Shown: positions 53,354-58,160 of the stretch, piece by piece | Layout: every line of letters begins with the position of its first letter | Numbering within the stretch: the first letter of the stretch is position 1 | Assembly: GCF_004766315.1 (NCBI RefSeq) | Contig: NZ_PVSN01000014.1 | Location: 1-64,000 of the forward strand | DNA from: Weissella confusa | GTDB lineage: Bacteria > Bacillota > Bacilli > Lactobacillales > Lactobacillaceae | Reading direction: 5' to 3' | DNA: 64,000 nucleotides | Notes under the pieces: model-generated | What the model was told of the DNA's origin: nothing | Databases searched by the model: none | What the model saw: the letters and a program-made list of their open reading frames with translations, nothing else | Position numbers and translations under genes: made by a program

Positions 53354-54055
53354 ATGATAGCAGAATTTAAACGCGCTTTTAATGCGACACCCGCAACCAG
53401 TGCCTTGGTGGCATTTATGGTCGTGGTGTACCTCTGGGAAGCTTTGATTTCGCAGAGTTTTACCATTAGCTCCCGTGTTTTATATGAAACAGGTGCGCAG
53501 TTCGGACCAATCGTTCTTCATTATGGTGAATGGTGGCGGTTGCTGACGGCAGGCTTTTTACACGTAACCGCTTCGCACTTAATCTTCAATATGATTACGT
53601 TGTACTTCATCGGACGCTTATTGGAATTGGAAATCGGTCATTGGCGTTTTCTAATTCTTTTCCTCGCAACGGTCATTAGTGGAAACTTGATGAGCTTAGC
53701 GTTTGGTGCGATGAATGTTATTTCAGCTGGTGCATCTGGTGGTGTGTTTGGCTTATTTGGCGCCATTGTTAGACTGGGCTTGATGGACAAACGACGAGCC
53801 TATTGGCGTAGTCAGGCGAAACTGATGACCACCTTTGTGTTGTTGTCAGTCATCTCAGCGCTATTTACGCCAGGGATTGATCTGGCAGCCCACATCGGCG
53901 GACTAGTTGGTGGATTCTTAATTGTGCCGGTACTTATTTCAGGTTTTCACTATTCAGGCCTGTTCAAGATCGGTGGTGGCCGACGAGCACTAGCATTGTT
54001 GGTGTACTTGGTGTTGATTGCCGTATTGGTCGGTATTGCACTGTTACGAAAGTAG
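53354..54055 (+). CDS. Rhomboid-family intramembrane serine protease (GluP-like)
   Basis: A 233-residue protein with six to seven membrane segments. Catalytic Ser in GASGGVFGLFGAIVRLG (TM4) and His in HIGGLVGGF (TM6) form the dyad; EWWRLLTAGFLHVTASHLIFNM is the conserved L1/TM2 region. It cleaves membrane proteins within the bilayer; the substrate is unknown. There is no TPR tail as in Bacillus GluP. AAGGAAG precedes ATG. Confidence 0.93.
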   Translation: MIAEFKRAFNATPATSALVAFMVVVYLWEALISQSFTISSRVLYETGAQFGPIVLHYGEWWRLLTAGFLHVTASHLIFNMITLYFIGRLLELEIGHWRFLILFLATVISGNLMSLAFGAMNVISAGASGGVFGLFGAIVRLGLMDKRRAYWRSQAKLMTTFVLLSVISALFTPGIDLAAHIGGLVGGFLIVPVLISGFHYSGLFKIGGGRRALALLVYLVLIAVLVGIALLRK

Positions 54056-54064
54056 GGGATAGAT

Positions 54065-54274
54065 ATGCAAACATTTTTAGACGTCCTAAACTTGTTGAAG
54101 AAATATGATATCTACATTCACGTTGGAAAACGCCTATGGGATATTGAGTTAGCAGCAATTGAAATCGACAATATGTATAAAGCTGGCCTACTTGATGCGA
54201 AGGAATATGCGCAAATCAAGTTGGTATTAAGGCATGAGCACGAGTTAGAAGAGAAGCAAGAAAGACTGCTATAA
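54065..54274 (+). CDS. YqgQ family protein (DUF910)
   Basis: A 69-residue helical protein with the family pattern FLDVLNLLKKYDIYIHVGKRLWDIELAAIEIDNMY. Function unknown; crystal structures show a three-helix bundle. It lies between the rhomboid gene and glcK as in most Bacilli. GGGGAT precedes ATG. The stop overlaps a TATAAT. Confidence 0.9.
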   Translation: MQTFLDVLNLLKKYDIYIHVGKRLWDIELAAIEIDNMYKAGLLDAKEYAQIKLVLRHEHELEEKQERLL

Positions 54275-54280
54275 TAGTAT

Positions 54281-54294
54281 TGAAAACGTTTTCA
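54281..54294. promoter_or_regulatory. CcpA operator (cre), consensus palindrome
   Basis: TGAAAACGTTTTCA matches the cre consensus TGWAANCGNTNWCA at every position and is a perfect palindrome. It lies 10 bases upstream of the -35 of the glcK promoter, a position that could give activation or repression by CcpA. Confidence 0.85.
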
Positions 54295-54303
54295 ATAAAA
54301 CAC

Positions 54304-54331
54304 TTGTTTTAATTCAGAAATTCGTTATAAT
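54304..54331 (+). promoter_or_regulatory. Promoter of glcK
   Basis: -35 TTGTTT (54304-54309), 16-base spacer, -10 TATAAT (54326-54331), 65 bases before ATG. Confidence 0.6.
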
Positions 54332-54395
54332 AAATAATGTTGAAAGATAAGAAAGCGATTACAAAATATTTTTGTGAGAATGACGAGGAAAAATC

Positions 54396-55373
54396 ATGGC
54401 TAAAGATAAGCTAATTGGTGTTGACCTTGGTGGTACGACTATCAAGTTCGCCATTTTGACTGCTGAAGGAGAAATCCAACAAAAGTGGTCAATCCGTACA
54501 AACATTTTGGATGAAGGGTCACACATCGTACCTGATATCATTGATTCAATTAACCACCACTTGGACTTGTACCAATTGGACAAGGATCGCATCATTGGTA
54601 TCGGAATGGGTACACCAGGAACGGTTGATCTTGAGAACGGTACTGTTAAGGGTGCCTTCAACTTGAACTGGAAGGAAACACAAAACGTTCGTGAGCAAAT
54701 CGAAGCTGGAACTGGTTTGCCATTGACGATGGACAACGACGCCAACGCTGCCGCATTGGGTGAGCAATGGCGTGGTGCCGGAAACAACCAACCAGACGTT
54801 GCCTTCATTACGTTGGGAACTGGTGTTGGTGGTGGATTGATTAACGATGGTAAGTTGATCCACGGTGTTGCTGGAGCCGGTGGTGAGGTCGGTCACATGA
54901 TCGTCGAGCCAGGTGGATACTTGTGCACATGCGGTAACTATGGTTGCTTGGAGCAATACGCTTCAGCTACTGGTGTTGTTCACTTGGCTCAAGACTTTGC
55001 AGAAGCCTACGTTGGTAACTCAAAGTTGAAGGCTATGGTCGACAACGGTGAAGAAGTAACGTCAAAGATTGTCTTTGACTTGGCCAAGGAAGGTGACTAC
55101 TTGGCAAACGAAGTTGTAGACAAGGTTGCTTACTACCTTGGATTGGCTTCAGCTAACATCTCAAACATCTTGAACCCATCTTCTGTTGTTATCGGTGGTG
55201 GTGTTTCAGCCGCAGGAAAGTTCTTGTTGGATCGTGTTGAGAAGAACTTTAAGCAATTTGCCTTCAAGTCAACGCGTGACGTGACTGAAGTTAAGTTGGC
55301 TGAGTTGGGTAACGATGCTGGTGCTTACGGTGCTGCTTCATTGGCCCGTAACTCAGACCGCGTTATTGCCTAA
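54396..55373 (+). CDS. glcK: Glucokinase, ROK family
   Basis: A 325-residue ROK kinase phosphorylating glucose with ATP. GVDLGGTTIKFAIL (phosphate-binding), NDANAAALGEQWRGAG (catalytic Asp), and the ROK zinc site CTCGNYGCLEQYAS are visible. It feeds the phosphoketolase pathway. It has its own promoter and a CcpA site, although it also ends the fthC-rhomboid-yqgQ series. Confidence 0.95.
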   Translation: MAKDKLIGVDLGGTTIKFAILTAEGEIQQKWSIRTNILDEGSHIVPDIIDSINHHLDLYQLDKDRIIGIGMGTPGTVDLENGTVKGAFNLNWKETQNVREQIEAGTGLPLTMDNDANAAALGEQWRGAGNNQPDVAFITLGTGVGGGLINDGKLIHGVAGAGGEVGHMIVEPGGYLCTCGNYGCLEQYASATGVVHLAQDFAEAYVGNSKLKAMVDNGEEVTSKIVFDLAKEGDYLANEVVDKVAYYLGLASANISNILNPSSVVIGGGVSAAGKFLLDRVEKNFKQFAFKSTRDVTEVKLAELGNDAGAYGAASLARNSDRVIA

Positions 55374-55392
55374 TTAAATAGAGCAAAAATAT

Positions 55393-55426
55393 AGACGAGA
55401 ATCAGCGATGGTTCTCGTCTTTTTTT
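55393..55426. terminator. Terminator of glcK
   Basis: GACGAGAA pairs with TTCTCGTC, seven T's after it; a T-rich stretch on the opposite arm makes it a possible stop from the right as well. Confidence 0.85.
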
Positions 55427-55472
55427 GTCGTGGTTTTGGAGTGGCCGTGTGTGTGTCGACGCGTTGCGCCGA

Positions 55473-55682
55473 GGCATGGGATTTGGTTGGGGTGGCGGTG
55501 CTCCGTCCTGCAATATAAGCTGGTGGCGACGGAGTCCCATTCTCACTAAGCCTCAGCGTATTTCCGCGCCTGTCGGCTCGAAATCCACTGCTGCTAAGTG
55601 ATAATTGGTGCTCCTGTCCTCGCTTGGTCACCGGCTAATATCGCAGGAGCTCCGCACCACCACCCCAACCAAATCCCATGCC
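55473..55682. repeat. Rod 1: 28-bp inverted repeat with inner hairpins
   Basis: 55473-55500 pairs with 55655-55682 at 27 of 28 positions. Inside are a 7-bp hairpin CTCCGTC/GACGGAG (55501-55507 with 55528-55534), another GCTCCTG/CAGGAGC (55610-55616 with 55644-55650) and a central TCACT/AGTGA (55543-55547 with 55597-55601). The left arm is G-run rich (GGTTGGGGTGGCGGTG) and could form a two-tier quadruplex. I see no target-site duplication. Confidence 0.85.
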
Positions 55683-55804
55683 AGCAGCTAAGATGTTCTA
55701 TCCTGTCTAAGATAATCATGCACCAGAAACCAAATGGGCGAACAGTTCAACCTGCGGTAAAGTGGTGGATGTAACTCAAACAATCAGAGTATTACTTGGC
55801 TGCT

Positions 55805-55981
55805 GTGCTTGGCCCCGCCACGCGTATAGACACGTGCAGACCTTGACCCGCAGGTGTGGGTTCTTAGCGGGTTTCCGCTTAGAGCAACGGGAGGTAAAGG
55901 AGCACGCGCCAACGGCGTGGACTCCGCTCCCTGCAGGTCATGGTCTGGACGTGTTAGCGTGCCCTAGAAGGGGCCAAGCAC
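55805..55981. repeat. Rod 2: long stem with branched tip
   Basis: Stacked helices: 55805-55816/55970-55981 (12 bp, GCTTGGCCCC core), CACGC/GCGTG (55819-55823 with 55957-55961), ACACGT/ACGTGT (55830-55835 with 55949-55954), CAGACC/GGTCTG (55837-55842 with 55942-55947), then 10 pairs between 55844-55854 and 55930-55940. The tip branches into AGCGG-GTTT-CCGCT (55866-55879) and GGAG/CTCC with CACGC/GCGTG (55899-55925). Confidence 0.8.
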
Positions 55982-56015
55982 TCCGGCCGTCAGGACGGAC
56001 ACTAACCACAAACTA

Positions 56016-56354
56016 AGCTGATCTGTAACAAACTTCCCAGAAAACGATGTAATAGTTGTAACAAACAGCCTGAAAAGTAATGAAAACACGAAAAAAGTTA
56101 TTTTCAGAGTGGGGACTGTTTTTGAAGTAAATGTGAACACCGGAACAGTTGTGCCGAAATGACGCTGTTTATATGCAAATCAAATATGACCAATTTGTGC
56201 GTTACACGTTGTTTAGTCGCTGTTATATAACTGTTACGCCCCGTCGGTATTATTAATCATGTTGCTAGGGCAACGCATAACTAATACAAATTAAATCTTA
56301 TTAAAACAAAGAAACAAACGCTTATATGAGCGACAGATAATTGGGGAGTTAATC
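56016..56354. other. Upstream region of the KxYKxGKxW LysM-CHAP gene
   Basis: AT-rich, no gene. Contains TGTAAT-3 nt-TGTAAC (56048-56062), a possible imperfect terminator for the structured region (CTGAAAAGTAA pairing with TTATTTTCAG, T5 at about 56128), the WalR-type box at 56221-56237, and a TATTAT -10-like element at 56248. Confidence 0.5.
56221..56237 (+). promoter_or_regulatory. WalR-type operator
   Basis: TGTTAT-ATAAC-TGTTAC fits TGTWAH-N5-TGTWAH exactly, 118 bases before the start of a LysM-CHAP wall hydrolase, a classic WalRK target. A TATTAT -10 at 56248 without a good -35 suits an activated promoter. Confidence 0.6.
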
Positions 56355-57197
56355 ATGCAAAACGTAAATTCACGCAAGAAGATGTACAAGTCAGGTAAGA
56401 ACTGGGTAGCCGCAACGGTTGTTGCTGCAGCTGCTGCCATCGTACCAATGATTTCAACTGAATCAGCATACGCTAACGAAGAAGTGGCACAAACGACTTC
56501 ATCATGGCGTGCAAAGACGGTTGATCAAGTGGTTGAAGCCGTTCAAGCCGCAGGTCAAAAGTACACGGTTCAAGCTGGTGATACGTTGTCAATGATTGCT
56601 TCAGCTACTGAATTGACTGCAGAAGAAATCGCTGCAGCAAACAACATCAACGACGCTAACTTCATTGTTATCGGTCAAGAAATCAACTTGACGAAGGAAG
56701 TTGCTGAAGAAGTTGTTGCTTCAGAAGCACCAGTTGCCGAAGAAGCTGCAGTTGAAGTAGCGCCAGTTGTTGAAGAAGCAGCACCTGTTGCTACTGAAGA
56801 AGTTGCCGTTGAAGAGGCACCAGTTGCCCAAGAAGCACAACCAGCAGCGCCTTCATACAACGCTGACTACACTGCTGTACCAGGTAACTCATACTACGCT
56901 GGACAATGCACGTGGTACGTTAAGAACCAATTGCCATGGGTTGGTAACTTCTGGGGTAACGCCGCAGAATGGGCTAACAACGCAACTTACGCTGGCCGTG
57001 TAGTTGACACGAACCCAGCTGTTGGTACGGTTGCTGTTATGATGCCAGGTGTCGCTTACGCTTCATCATACGGACACGTGGCTGTTGTTACGGGTGTTAA
57101 CGGTGACATGATCACAATCTCAGAAATGAACGCTAAGGGTGAATTCGTGGTTTCATCACGTACTATCCCTGCAGCAGGTGTTTTGTTCATCCACTAA
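56355..57197 (+). CDS. LysM-CHAP peptidoglycan hydrolase with KxYKxGKxW signal
   Basis: A 280-residue exported protein. The N-terminus RKKMYKSGKNW is an exact KxYKxGKxW motif followed by a hydrophobic core and cleavage near AYA-NE. Then come a conserved segment SWRAKTVDQVVEAVQAAG (about 50-67), one LysM (about 70-113), an Ala/Val/Glu-Pro linker and a CHAP domain (about 175-280) with Cys in AGQCTWYVK and His in YGHVAVV. It cleaves peptidoglycan at the wall. A similar pre-LysM segment is in the next gene. A WalR-type box lies upstream. GGGGAG precedes ATG. Confidence 0.92.
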   Translation: MQNVNSRKKMYKSGKNWVAATVVAAAAAIVPMISTESAYANEEVAQTTSSWRAKTVDQVVEAVQAAGQKYTVQAGDTLSMIASATELTAEEIAAANNINDANFIVIGQEINLTKEVAEEVVASEAPVAEEAAVEVAPVVEEAAPVATEEVAVEEAPVAQEAQPAAPSYNADYTAVPGNSYYAGQCTWYVKNQLPWVGNFWGNAAEWANNATYAGRVVDTNPAVGTVAVMMPGVAYASSYGHVAVVTGVNGDMITISEMNAKGEFVVSSRTIPAAGVLFIH

Positions 57198-57214
57198 TTT
57201 GAAATGTATTGCAT

Positions 57215-57247
57215 ACGGGACATTGTCATCAATGTCCCGTTTTTTTG
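57215..57247 (+). terminator. Terminator
   Basis: ACGGGACATTG pairs perfectly with CAATGTCCCGT, T7. Confidence 0.9.
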
Positions 57248-57353
57248 TTATCGTGATGTAACTTACTTGATATACGTACTTGCTATTATAGAAAGCATAC
57301 GAGGCTCAGTCGTTGGACTGGCCAAAAACGTACAAAAAGGGAATATAAACAAT

Positions 57354-58160
57354 ATGATTAACTCTAAGATGAATGCTATGGCTAAGGGAATGGGAGCTGC
57401 CGCTTTGGTTGCCGCTGCTGCGATTTTGCCAATGACGAACTCAAACACTGCTGTATCAGCCGACGATAACGCAAAGCCAGCTACGGACGCTGCTTCATGG
57501 CGTGCAAAGACGGTTGACGACGTTAAGGAAGCCGTTAAGACTGCTGGTACGACTTACAAGATTCAAGAAGGTGATACGATTGACACAATCGCACAAGCAA
57601 CTGGCTTGAAGGTTGATGACATCGTAAAGATGAACAACATCACGAACCCTAACTTGATCATCGTTGGTGAAGAGATTCGCTTGAACGGTTCAGTTGCACC
57701 TGCACAATCAAGTGCTGCAGCAGAACCAGCTCAATCACAAGCTTCATCTGCTGCGTCATCAGCACCAGTTGCTTCTGCAGCGCCTGCACAAACGTCAGTT
57801 GCAACTGCACCTGTTTCAACGGGTTCATTCGCTGATGCCGTTAACGCATTGAACGCAATCCGTACGGCTGCTGGTTTGTCACCAGTTTCATACGATGCTT
57901 CATTGTCAGCAACTGCACAATACCGTGCCGACATGATGGCAGGAAACGTTGACGCTGCGCACTTTGCACAATCATACGGTCACGAAGTTGTTGCTATTGG
58001 CTTCGGTGCTGGTTCAGCCGCTGTTAACGCTTGGTATGCTGAAACTGGTATGATCGACAACGGTTCACACCCACACACGCGTTGGGTATTGGGTTCATAC
58101 TCACGTGTTGGTTTCGGTTACAACGCTGCTACTGGTACGTTCGTTGCTGAAGCGCAATAA
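57354..58160 (+). CDS. Secreted LysM-CAP (SCP-like) domain protein
   Basis: A 268-residue exported protein: ordinary signal peptide (about 1-37, cleavage near VSA-DD), the segment SWRAKTVDDVKEAVKTAG shared with the preceding protein, one LysM (about 65-108, IQEGDTIDTIAQATGL), an Ala/Ser/Pro-rich linker and a C-terminal CAP domain (NALNAIRTAAGLSPVSYDASLSA start; GHEVVAIG; WVLGSYSRVGFGY). Bacterial CAP proteins (YkwD-like) are wall-bound and of unknown activity. AAAGGGAA precedes ATG 57354. An imperfect WalR-like box (57257-57273, one mismatch) lies upstream. Confidence 0.9.
   Translation: MINSKMNAMAKGMGAAALVAAAAILPMTNSNTAVSADDNAKPATDAASWRAKTVDDVKEAVKTAGTTYKIQEGDTIDTIAQATGLKVDDIVKMNNITNPNLIIVGEEIRLNGSVAPAQSSAAAEPAQSQASSAASSAPVASAAPAQTSVATAPVSTGSFADAVNALNAIRTAAGLSPVSYDASLSATAQYRADMMAGNVDAAHFAQSYGHEVVAIGFGAGSAAVNAWYAETGMIDNGSHPHTRWVLGSYSRVGFGYNAATGTFVAEAQ

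Follow-up and report, generated by a model that had tools for sequence, protein, structure and literature searches.

A dispersed and apparently mobile family of gene-free hairpin elements in the Weissella confusa group

What is the GC-rich block which lies between glcK and a LysM gene in Weissella confusa? It is found in a stretch of 64,000 nucleotides, which we call the window. An earlier note had described it as a block without a credible gene, folded into two branched rods, and had suggested a large structured RNA, possibly a new class of non-coding RNA. According to a model of its ends the block covers positions 55439–56016, 578 bp in all (Table 1). It is indeed rich in GC: 56.4% G+C, versus 46.2% in the window and 44.6% and 39.2% in the 500 bp on either side. 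As judged by eye, the open reading frames inside it are short and chance-like, in agreement with the reported lack of a gene. The pairing of 55473–55500 with 55655–55682 at 27 of 28 positions is exactly as claimed, and the second rod, in which approximately 55805–55854 pairs with 55930–55981, appears in the MFE fold with its two side hairpins at the tip. The nested complementarity was considered to be beyond chance: the RNA fold has -289.1 kcal/mol (z = -11.4) and none of 100 shuffles is equally good. For the minus strand, folded with DNA parameters, z is -10.9, again with none of 100 shuffles equally good. The features which the note did not contain are the GTGTC with its hairpin at either end, a middle stem (about 55683–55801) and the other copies. 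The element is followed by two adjacent genes of secreted proteins (56355–57197 and 57204–58160), which by eye have LysM-like N-terminal halves; the C-terminal end of the latter resembles a CAP/SCP domain.

Table 1. Features of the element in the window and of the host sequence adjoining it
Feature	Position	Strand	Basis
Intrinsic terminator of glcK (host sequence adjoining the element): hairpin AGACGAGAA...TTCTCGTCT and T tract	55393..55426	+	sequence
Left end, with a GT-rich outer repeat followed by GTGTC	55439..55457	+	end-model match 55439-55475; alignment A1
Left end hairpin TCGACGC-GTT-GCGCCGA	55456..55472	+	sequence; compensated over 59 ends
Type A arm (first branched rod)	55474..55681	+	alignment A3 and its fold
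Middle stem M (AGCAGC...)	55683..55801	+	matched wholly or partly in 38/44 elements; fold
Type D arm, read inwards from the right end: the second branched rod with its two side hairpins	55805..55981	-	alignment A2, pair counts
Right end hairpin, TCCGGCCGTCAGGACGGA on the + strand	55982..55999	-	sequence; end-model match 55979-56016
Right end: GACAC and outer repeat TAACCACAAACTAA	55998..56016	-	sequence; alignment; end model

At permissive thresholds, a search of positions 54000–58000 against Rfam gave seven hits (E up to 10), of which not one comes near its gathering score; RNase P, tmRNA, SRP, 6S, ROOL, GOLLD and OLE are not among them. The earlier failure to match a known family is borne out by this search, which gave chance hits only. 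The block has no match in plasmids or in phages. A literature search, with most subscription papers outside its reach, found no earlier description of the element.

The block is not alone in its genome. We have found 13 loci of the element in its own genome (G000) and 11 in another genome of the same species (G060), while one relative (G013) has 21 paired elements and 23 single ends. BLAST with the block gives 19 matching places in G000, itself and matches between inverted arms included, and 20 in G060. Of 60 genomes five have a match, its own included, all within the genus; none of the 33 genomes outside the genus has one. The exact end pattern was found in 25 stretches of a named genome collection, which may omit records very near to the genome of the window: 23 come from records named Weissella confusa and the other two, from actinobacterial MAGs, are taken as chance. 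A covariance model of the end, searched over 28 genomes of the genus with E up to 0.05, found ends in six of them: 19 in G000, 20 in G060, 65 in G013, 18 in G003, 23 in G023 and four in G021. These six do not include G004 and G006, which have one weak hit each; the remaining 20 have no ends. Two records, JAAOED and JQAY, carry the same name, Weissella confusa DSM 20196, but do not agree in their elements or at orthologous sites; therefore one of them is probably mislabelled.

Pairing was based on 150 of the 151 ends counted. Of these, 88 could be joined with a neighbour into 44 pairs, every one of them convergent, and 62 are unpaired. The span is 536–620 bp in 32 pairs; eleven are shorter and a single one reaches 1,017 bp. 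Since the latter has no open reading frame over 82 aa, no autonomous version has been seen. The block thus belongs to a dispersed, apparently mobile family of gene-free elements of about 0.55 kb in the Weissella confusa group. Having copies elsewhere in the genome, it is no RNA gene confined to one locus. The proposal of one new non-coding RNA gene is not supported; the block is a multi-copy element with inverted ends, polymorphic in its insertion.

Both ends have the same plan: a GT-rich tract, GTGTC, a hairpin of 7 bp with a loop of 3–4 nt and then usually GAG. In alignment A1, which contains 59 of the 66 ends collected, GTGTC is near-invariant and the outer repeats are degenerate. In the end hairpins 90.3% of the cells are paired and 78 cells have a double change; the covariation is 0.401, versus 0.120 in the shuffled control and no more than 0.189 with sliding. 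Since these ends were gathered by sequence patterns, known types are favoured in the sample. A further and more diverged end type (GTGTTGTGCTAGCGCACAA or GTGTCGTGCTAGCGCACGAG) is found in G023, G013 and G021 (L056 1553-, L052 1615-, L075 1406-); therefore more arm types probably exist.

Each half of the element carries a long rod, and these rods, which fall into six types (A, B, B2, C, D and E), are placed around the middle stem; 18 of the 88 half-elements could not be typed and are outside the counts. In the 30 elements with both arms typed the combinations are BD (7), CE (7), CD (6), AD (4), BE (2) and AE, AC, AB and B2E (1 each). Two arms of the same class are never found together (0 of 30, versus 9.2 expected; none of 100,000 shuffles is as low, a significance overstated by copies which share sites and descent). 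Exactly one D or E arm is present in 28 of the 30. Arms C and D/E are homologous when each is read from its end inwards, so they have opposite polarity inside one element. At the seven shared sites with both arms typed in at least two genomes the arms differ at four; among the three which agree, one has an arm that is a D/E hybrid (L151). Conserved loop motifs of the arms include GCTAA, CCTTTACC and TCTATACG. Some arms of G013 are peculiar: L147 and L149 each have one arm with an extra insert of about 72 nt starting TCACGCGGCTCTTATTCCTTCACAGGA, with arm lengths of 252 and 249 nt versus the usual length of about 180, and in L046 (about 937–1010) long runs of G and C, perhaps an assembly artefact, stand in place of one arm.

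The elements are placed in a particular surrounding. In the window the glcK terminator, scored at -17.5 kcal/mol, is directed towards the element. An energy-based scan found that 42 of the 44 elements have a terminator-like hairpin and T tract which points at an end. By flanks, the same scan gives 49 of 88, versus 2 of 88 further out, 4.4 in shuffled sequences and 15 pointing away. When shared sites are collapsed, 24 of the 26 distinct sites adjoin an intrinsic terminator, versus one of 26 further out. The first T of the terminator is 15–41 nt from GTGTC, with one case at 70. A permissive scan, positive in 81 of 88 flanks, was rejected: it gave 63.7 in shuffled sequences, 43 pointing away and 26 further out. 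Since genes often end in terminators, part of this placement may reflect tolerance of the place, not targeting. At 23 inspected loci of G000 and G060 the flanking open reading frames of at least 80 aa look ordinary and none is transposase-like, as judged by eye without a domain search.

Have these elements moved? We have aligned 14 sites with their counterparts, using 20 fetched counterparts which are a subset of all hits: by eye, six are cleanly empty elsewhere, five have scars of the ends and three are ambiguous. The cleanly empty sites point to fresh insertion, as far as an alignment of sites can tell. The glcK-LysM site itself is variable: G060 has the same element, G013 another pair of arms, G003 and G023 only a scar (GTGTG...CACAC) and G021 neither element nor scar. 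Other sites are in different states of decay: at L134 there is a full element in G060 versus a scar in G000, and at L042 a longer partial copy in G000 versus a collapsed copy in G060. L032 and L062 have an end repeat lying within another, which suggests re-entry into a scar. The earlier note had allowed that scattered copies with target-site duplications, together with a lack of covariation, would make the block a mobile inverted repeat. The copies are scattered and covariation is present; no constant duplication was seen by eye at the 14 aligned sites.

A partner enzyme was sought with two domains. Y1_Tnp (PF01797) has no match in G000, G060, G003 and G013, the genome richest in elements, and one match each in G023 and G021; a RAYT/Y1 enzyme as partner is not supported, as the domain is absent in four of the six genomes with elements. 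A reverse transcriptase is not supported either, since PF00078 has no match in any of the six.

Is the pairing a property of RNA or of DNA? Compensation is strong in the arms as well as in the end hairpins. In the C/D/E arms (alignment A2: 41 of 47, omitting three D, two E and one C) 98.0% of the cells are paired, 29 of 51 pairs have double changes and the covariation is 0.430, versus 0.149 when shuffled. The 14 B/B2 arms have 93.2% of cells paired, double changes in 32 of 66 pairs and a covariation of 0.303 versus 0.119; their basal stem varies between copies, yet it mostly remains paired. The 13 A arms (alignment A3: nine extracted, four with borders set by hand) have double changes in 16 of 76 pairs, a count without a shuffle control. 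Conservation is about equal in paired and unpaired columns, which means that the loops, too, are held back from drifting.

An RNA strand is expected to favour G-U over A-C. Among the variable wobble cells we have found 30 G-T in 16 pairs and 43 A-C in 33 pairs, setting aside pairs whose commonest form is non-Watson-Crick and, in alignment A4, two B2 arms. By arm type, the G-T/A-C cells are D 6/5, E 4/4, C 9/5, A 7/9 and B 4/14. There is thus no excess of G-U, even though the arm structures were predicted as RNA, a bias towards G-U. The count of pairs leans to A-C (16 versus 33, two-sided P 0.02; the test has 73 cells, many from related copies). The opposite strand may therefore be weakly preferred, as is seen in arms A and B. 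Because G-U is not in excess among the variable wobbles, we infer that the arms pair as DNA, either in a cruciform or in a single strand, or that they arise from a process of DNA copying. The idea of a large structured RNA stands as far as the large structure and its compensatory changes are concerned; the variable wobbles give no support to its assignment to one RNA strand.

The explanation which we favour, as the probable one, is a non-autonomous mobile DNA which acts through hairpins in its own DNA and is similar in plan to REPINs. Two inverted ends, each with its GT-rich repeat, GTGTC and short hairpin, enclose two unlike long arms and the middle stem. An enzyme supplied in trans would recognise the ends when these are folded, in a single strand or a cruciform, and the element would be inserted just behind an intrinsic terminator, outside genes. 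The core would then often be deleted, since long palindromes are unstable, leaving GTGTG...CACAC scars, and a scarred site might be refilled with another combination of arms. The same sites are in fact occupied in several genomes with different arms, which could also be explained by passive DNA: hairpins would be fixed hot spots behind terminators, and their arms would be copied between sites by gene conversion or template switching in the absence of transposition. Replication template switching also gives compensated stems, and core deletions are common. However several sites filled in G013 have cleanly empty counterparts in other genomes, a sign of new insertions, and template switching should wipe out the conserved internal loops, so we consider such a passive origin quite improbable.

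We also find it unlikely that the unit encodes a large structured RNA, as a gene which is mobile or present in several copies and whose folded transcript might act as a regulator or bind a protein. The very stable fold, the strong covariation and the conserved loop motifs would agree with such a gene, but the variable pairs lack a G-U excess, homologous arms lie in opposite polarity inside one element, arms differ at four of seven comparable sites and Rfam has no match. Least probable of all, to the point that we give it little weight, is the reading as a true REPIN, mobilised by a RAYT (Y1) transposase. The plan of inverted hairpin units around a spacer is alike (PMC3116915) and Y1_Tnp occurs once each in two genomes. 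However it was not found in the other four, the motif beside the hairpin is GTGTC instead of GTAG and the elements are far larger than REP doublets. The structure of the block is real, unusual and unnamed in Rfam, and the unit is most likely a mobile DNA hairpin rather than a demonstrated class of non-coding RNA.

Possible relatives are found outside the genus. A model of the C/D/E apex matched 14 of 397 Lactobacillaceae genomes, ten of them in five other genera, with E from 3e-6 to 8e-4 per genome; given 397 genomes, the weakest values are within reach of chance. Among 12 such loci which were fetched, one of them through the hairpin pattern itself, 11 have a CTAAG/CTTAG hairpin with a single mismatch, A.A or T.T, a recovery which is partly circular as the model contains this hairpin, and in the same 11 the outer stem differs but is paired. 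Independently of the apex hairpin, most of these loci resemble each other in a closing stem tipped by two or three hairpins and in a second hairpin, TTGGAAAC...GTTTCAAG or TTTGAG...CTCAAAG. Only four of ten wider loci have a strong terminator within 400 nt, which weakens the generality of that placement. Rfam gave one weak miRNA hit for L203–L207 and no hit for eight of the loci L220–L229; plasmids searched with L204, L207, L225 and L227 and phages searched with L226 gave no match. A strict hairpin pattern occurs in three of 395 genomes of the order, its own included. From their sequences, a relationship of these loci with the Weissella element is a possible lead. It would be in line with a more doubtful proposal, a superfamily of hairpin DNA across Lactobacillaceae, with a CTAAG hairpin of fixed A.A mismatch, selected as folded DNA and moved by an enzyme which reads its shape; the Weissella form would add insertion at terminators and the rule of unlike arms. 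The GC-rich, phage-like viral contigs L217–L219 have several intergenic GGCAGCTCTAAG-GGGCAAAGCCCC-TAAGAGCTGGCC hairpins with the same single CTAAG/CTAAG mismatch; this likeness may be convergent.

These elements are a warning that covariation by itself is no proof of a structured RNA. Natural families with abundant compensatory change and no G-U excess would make selection on folded DNA directly testable, and they point to a mobility system, perhaps directed by terminators, in a genus associated with food.

How does the element compare with known systems? Group IIC introns land directly behind intrinsic terminators, a site which the element shares. Its identity as a group II intron is not supported: there is no Rfam intron hit in 54000–58000 and no PF00078 match in the six genomes with elements. 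The double-hairpin elements of organelles are GC-rich paired hairpins which are said to be mobile; they are alike in this description and differ in being mitochondrial. Prokaryotic MITEs (PMC10969869) are folded, have many copies, no gene and terminal inverted repeats. The element shares these features, its inverted repeats being degenerate in their outer part; it differs from MITEs by its GC-rich arms and its compensated hairpin ends. By eye, no constant target duplication was seen at the 14 aligned sites. A parent transposon with the same ends was not found among the 44 end pairs, 43 of which are no longer than 620 bp. The pneumococcal BOX elements, likewise from a Gram-positive bacterium, are dispersed repeats which are modular and fold strongly, organised as boxA-boxB(n)-boxC (PMC3049150); compared by description, the Weissella element differs in having two unlike arms around a middle stem. 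In plan the element is similar to REPINs. These are REP doublets, inverted hairpin units which enclose a spacer and are associated with RAYT (PMC3116915); they have a short tag and a hairpin at both ends, in inverted orientation, and are dispersed, extragenic and non-autonomous (PMC3116915, PMC3733652). The Weissella element has such an inverted doublet of tagged hairpins, convergent in 44 of 44 cases and with compensated ends. We have not filed it as a REPIN because the tests for a GTAG tag and for a RAYT failed: the tag of the GTAG superfamily is absent beside the hairpin, where the 59 aligned ends have GTGTC, and the Y1 transposase was not found in four of six genomes with elements. It also stands apart from REPINs by its length of about 550 bp, its two long branched arms and its placement at terminators.
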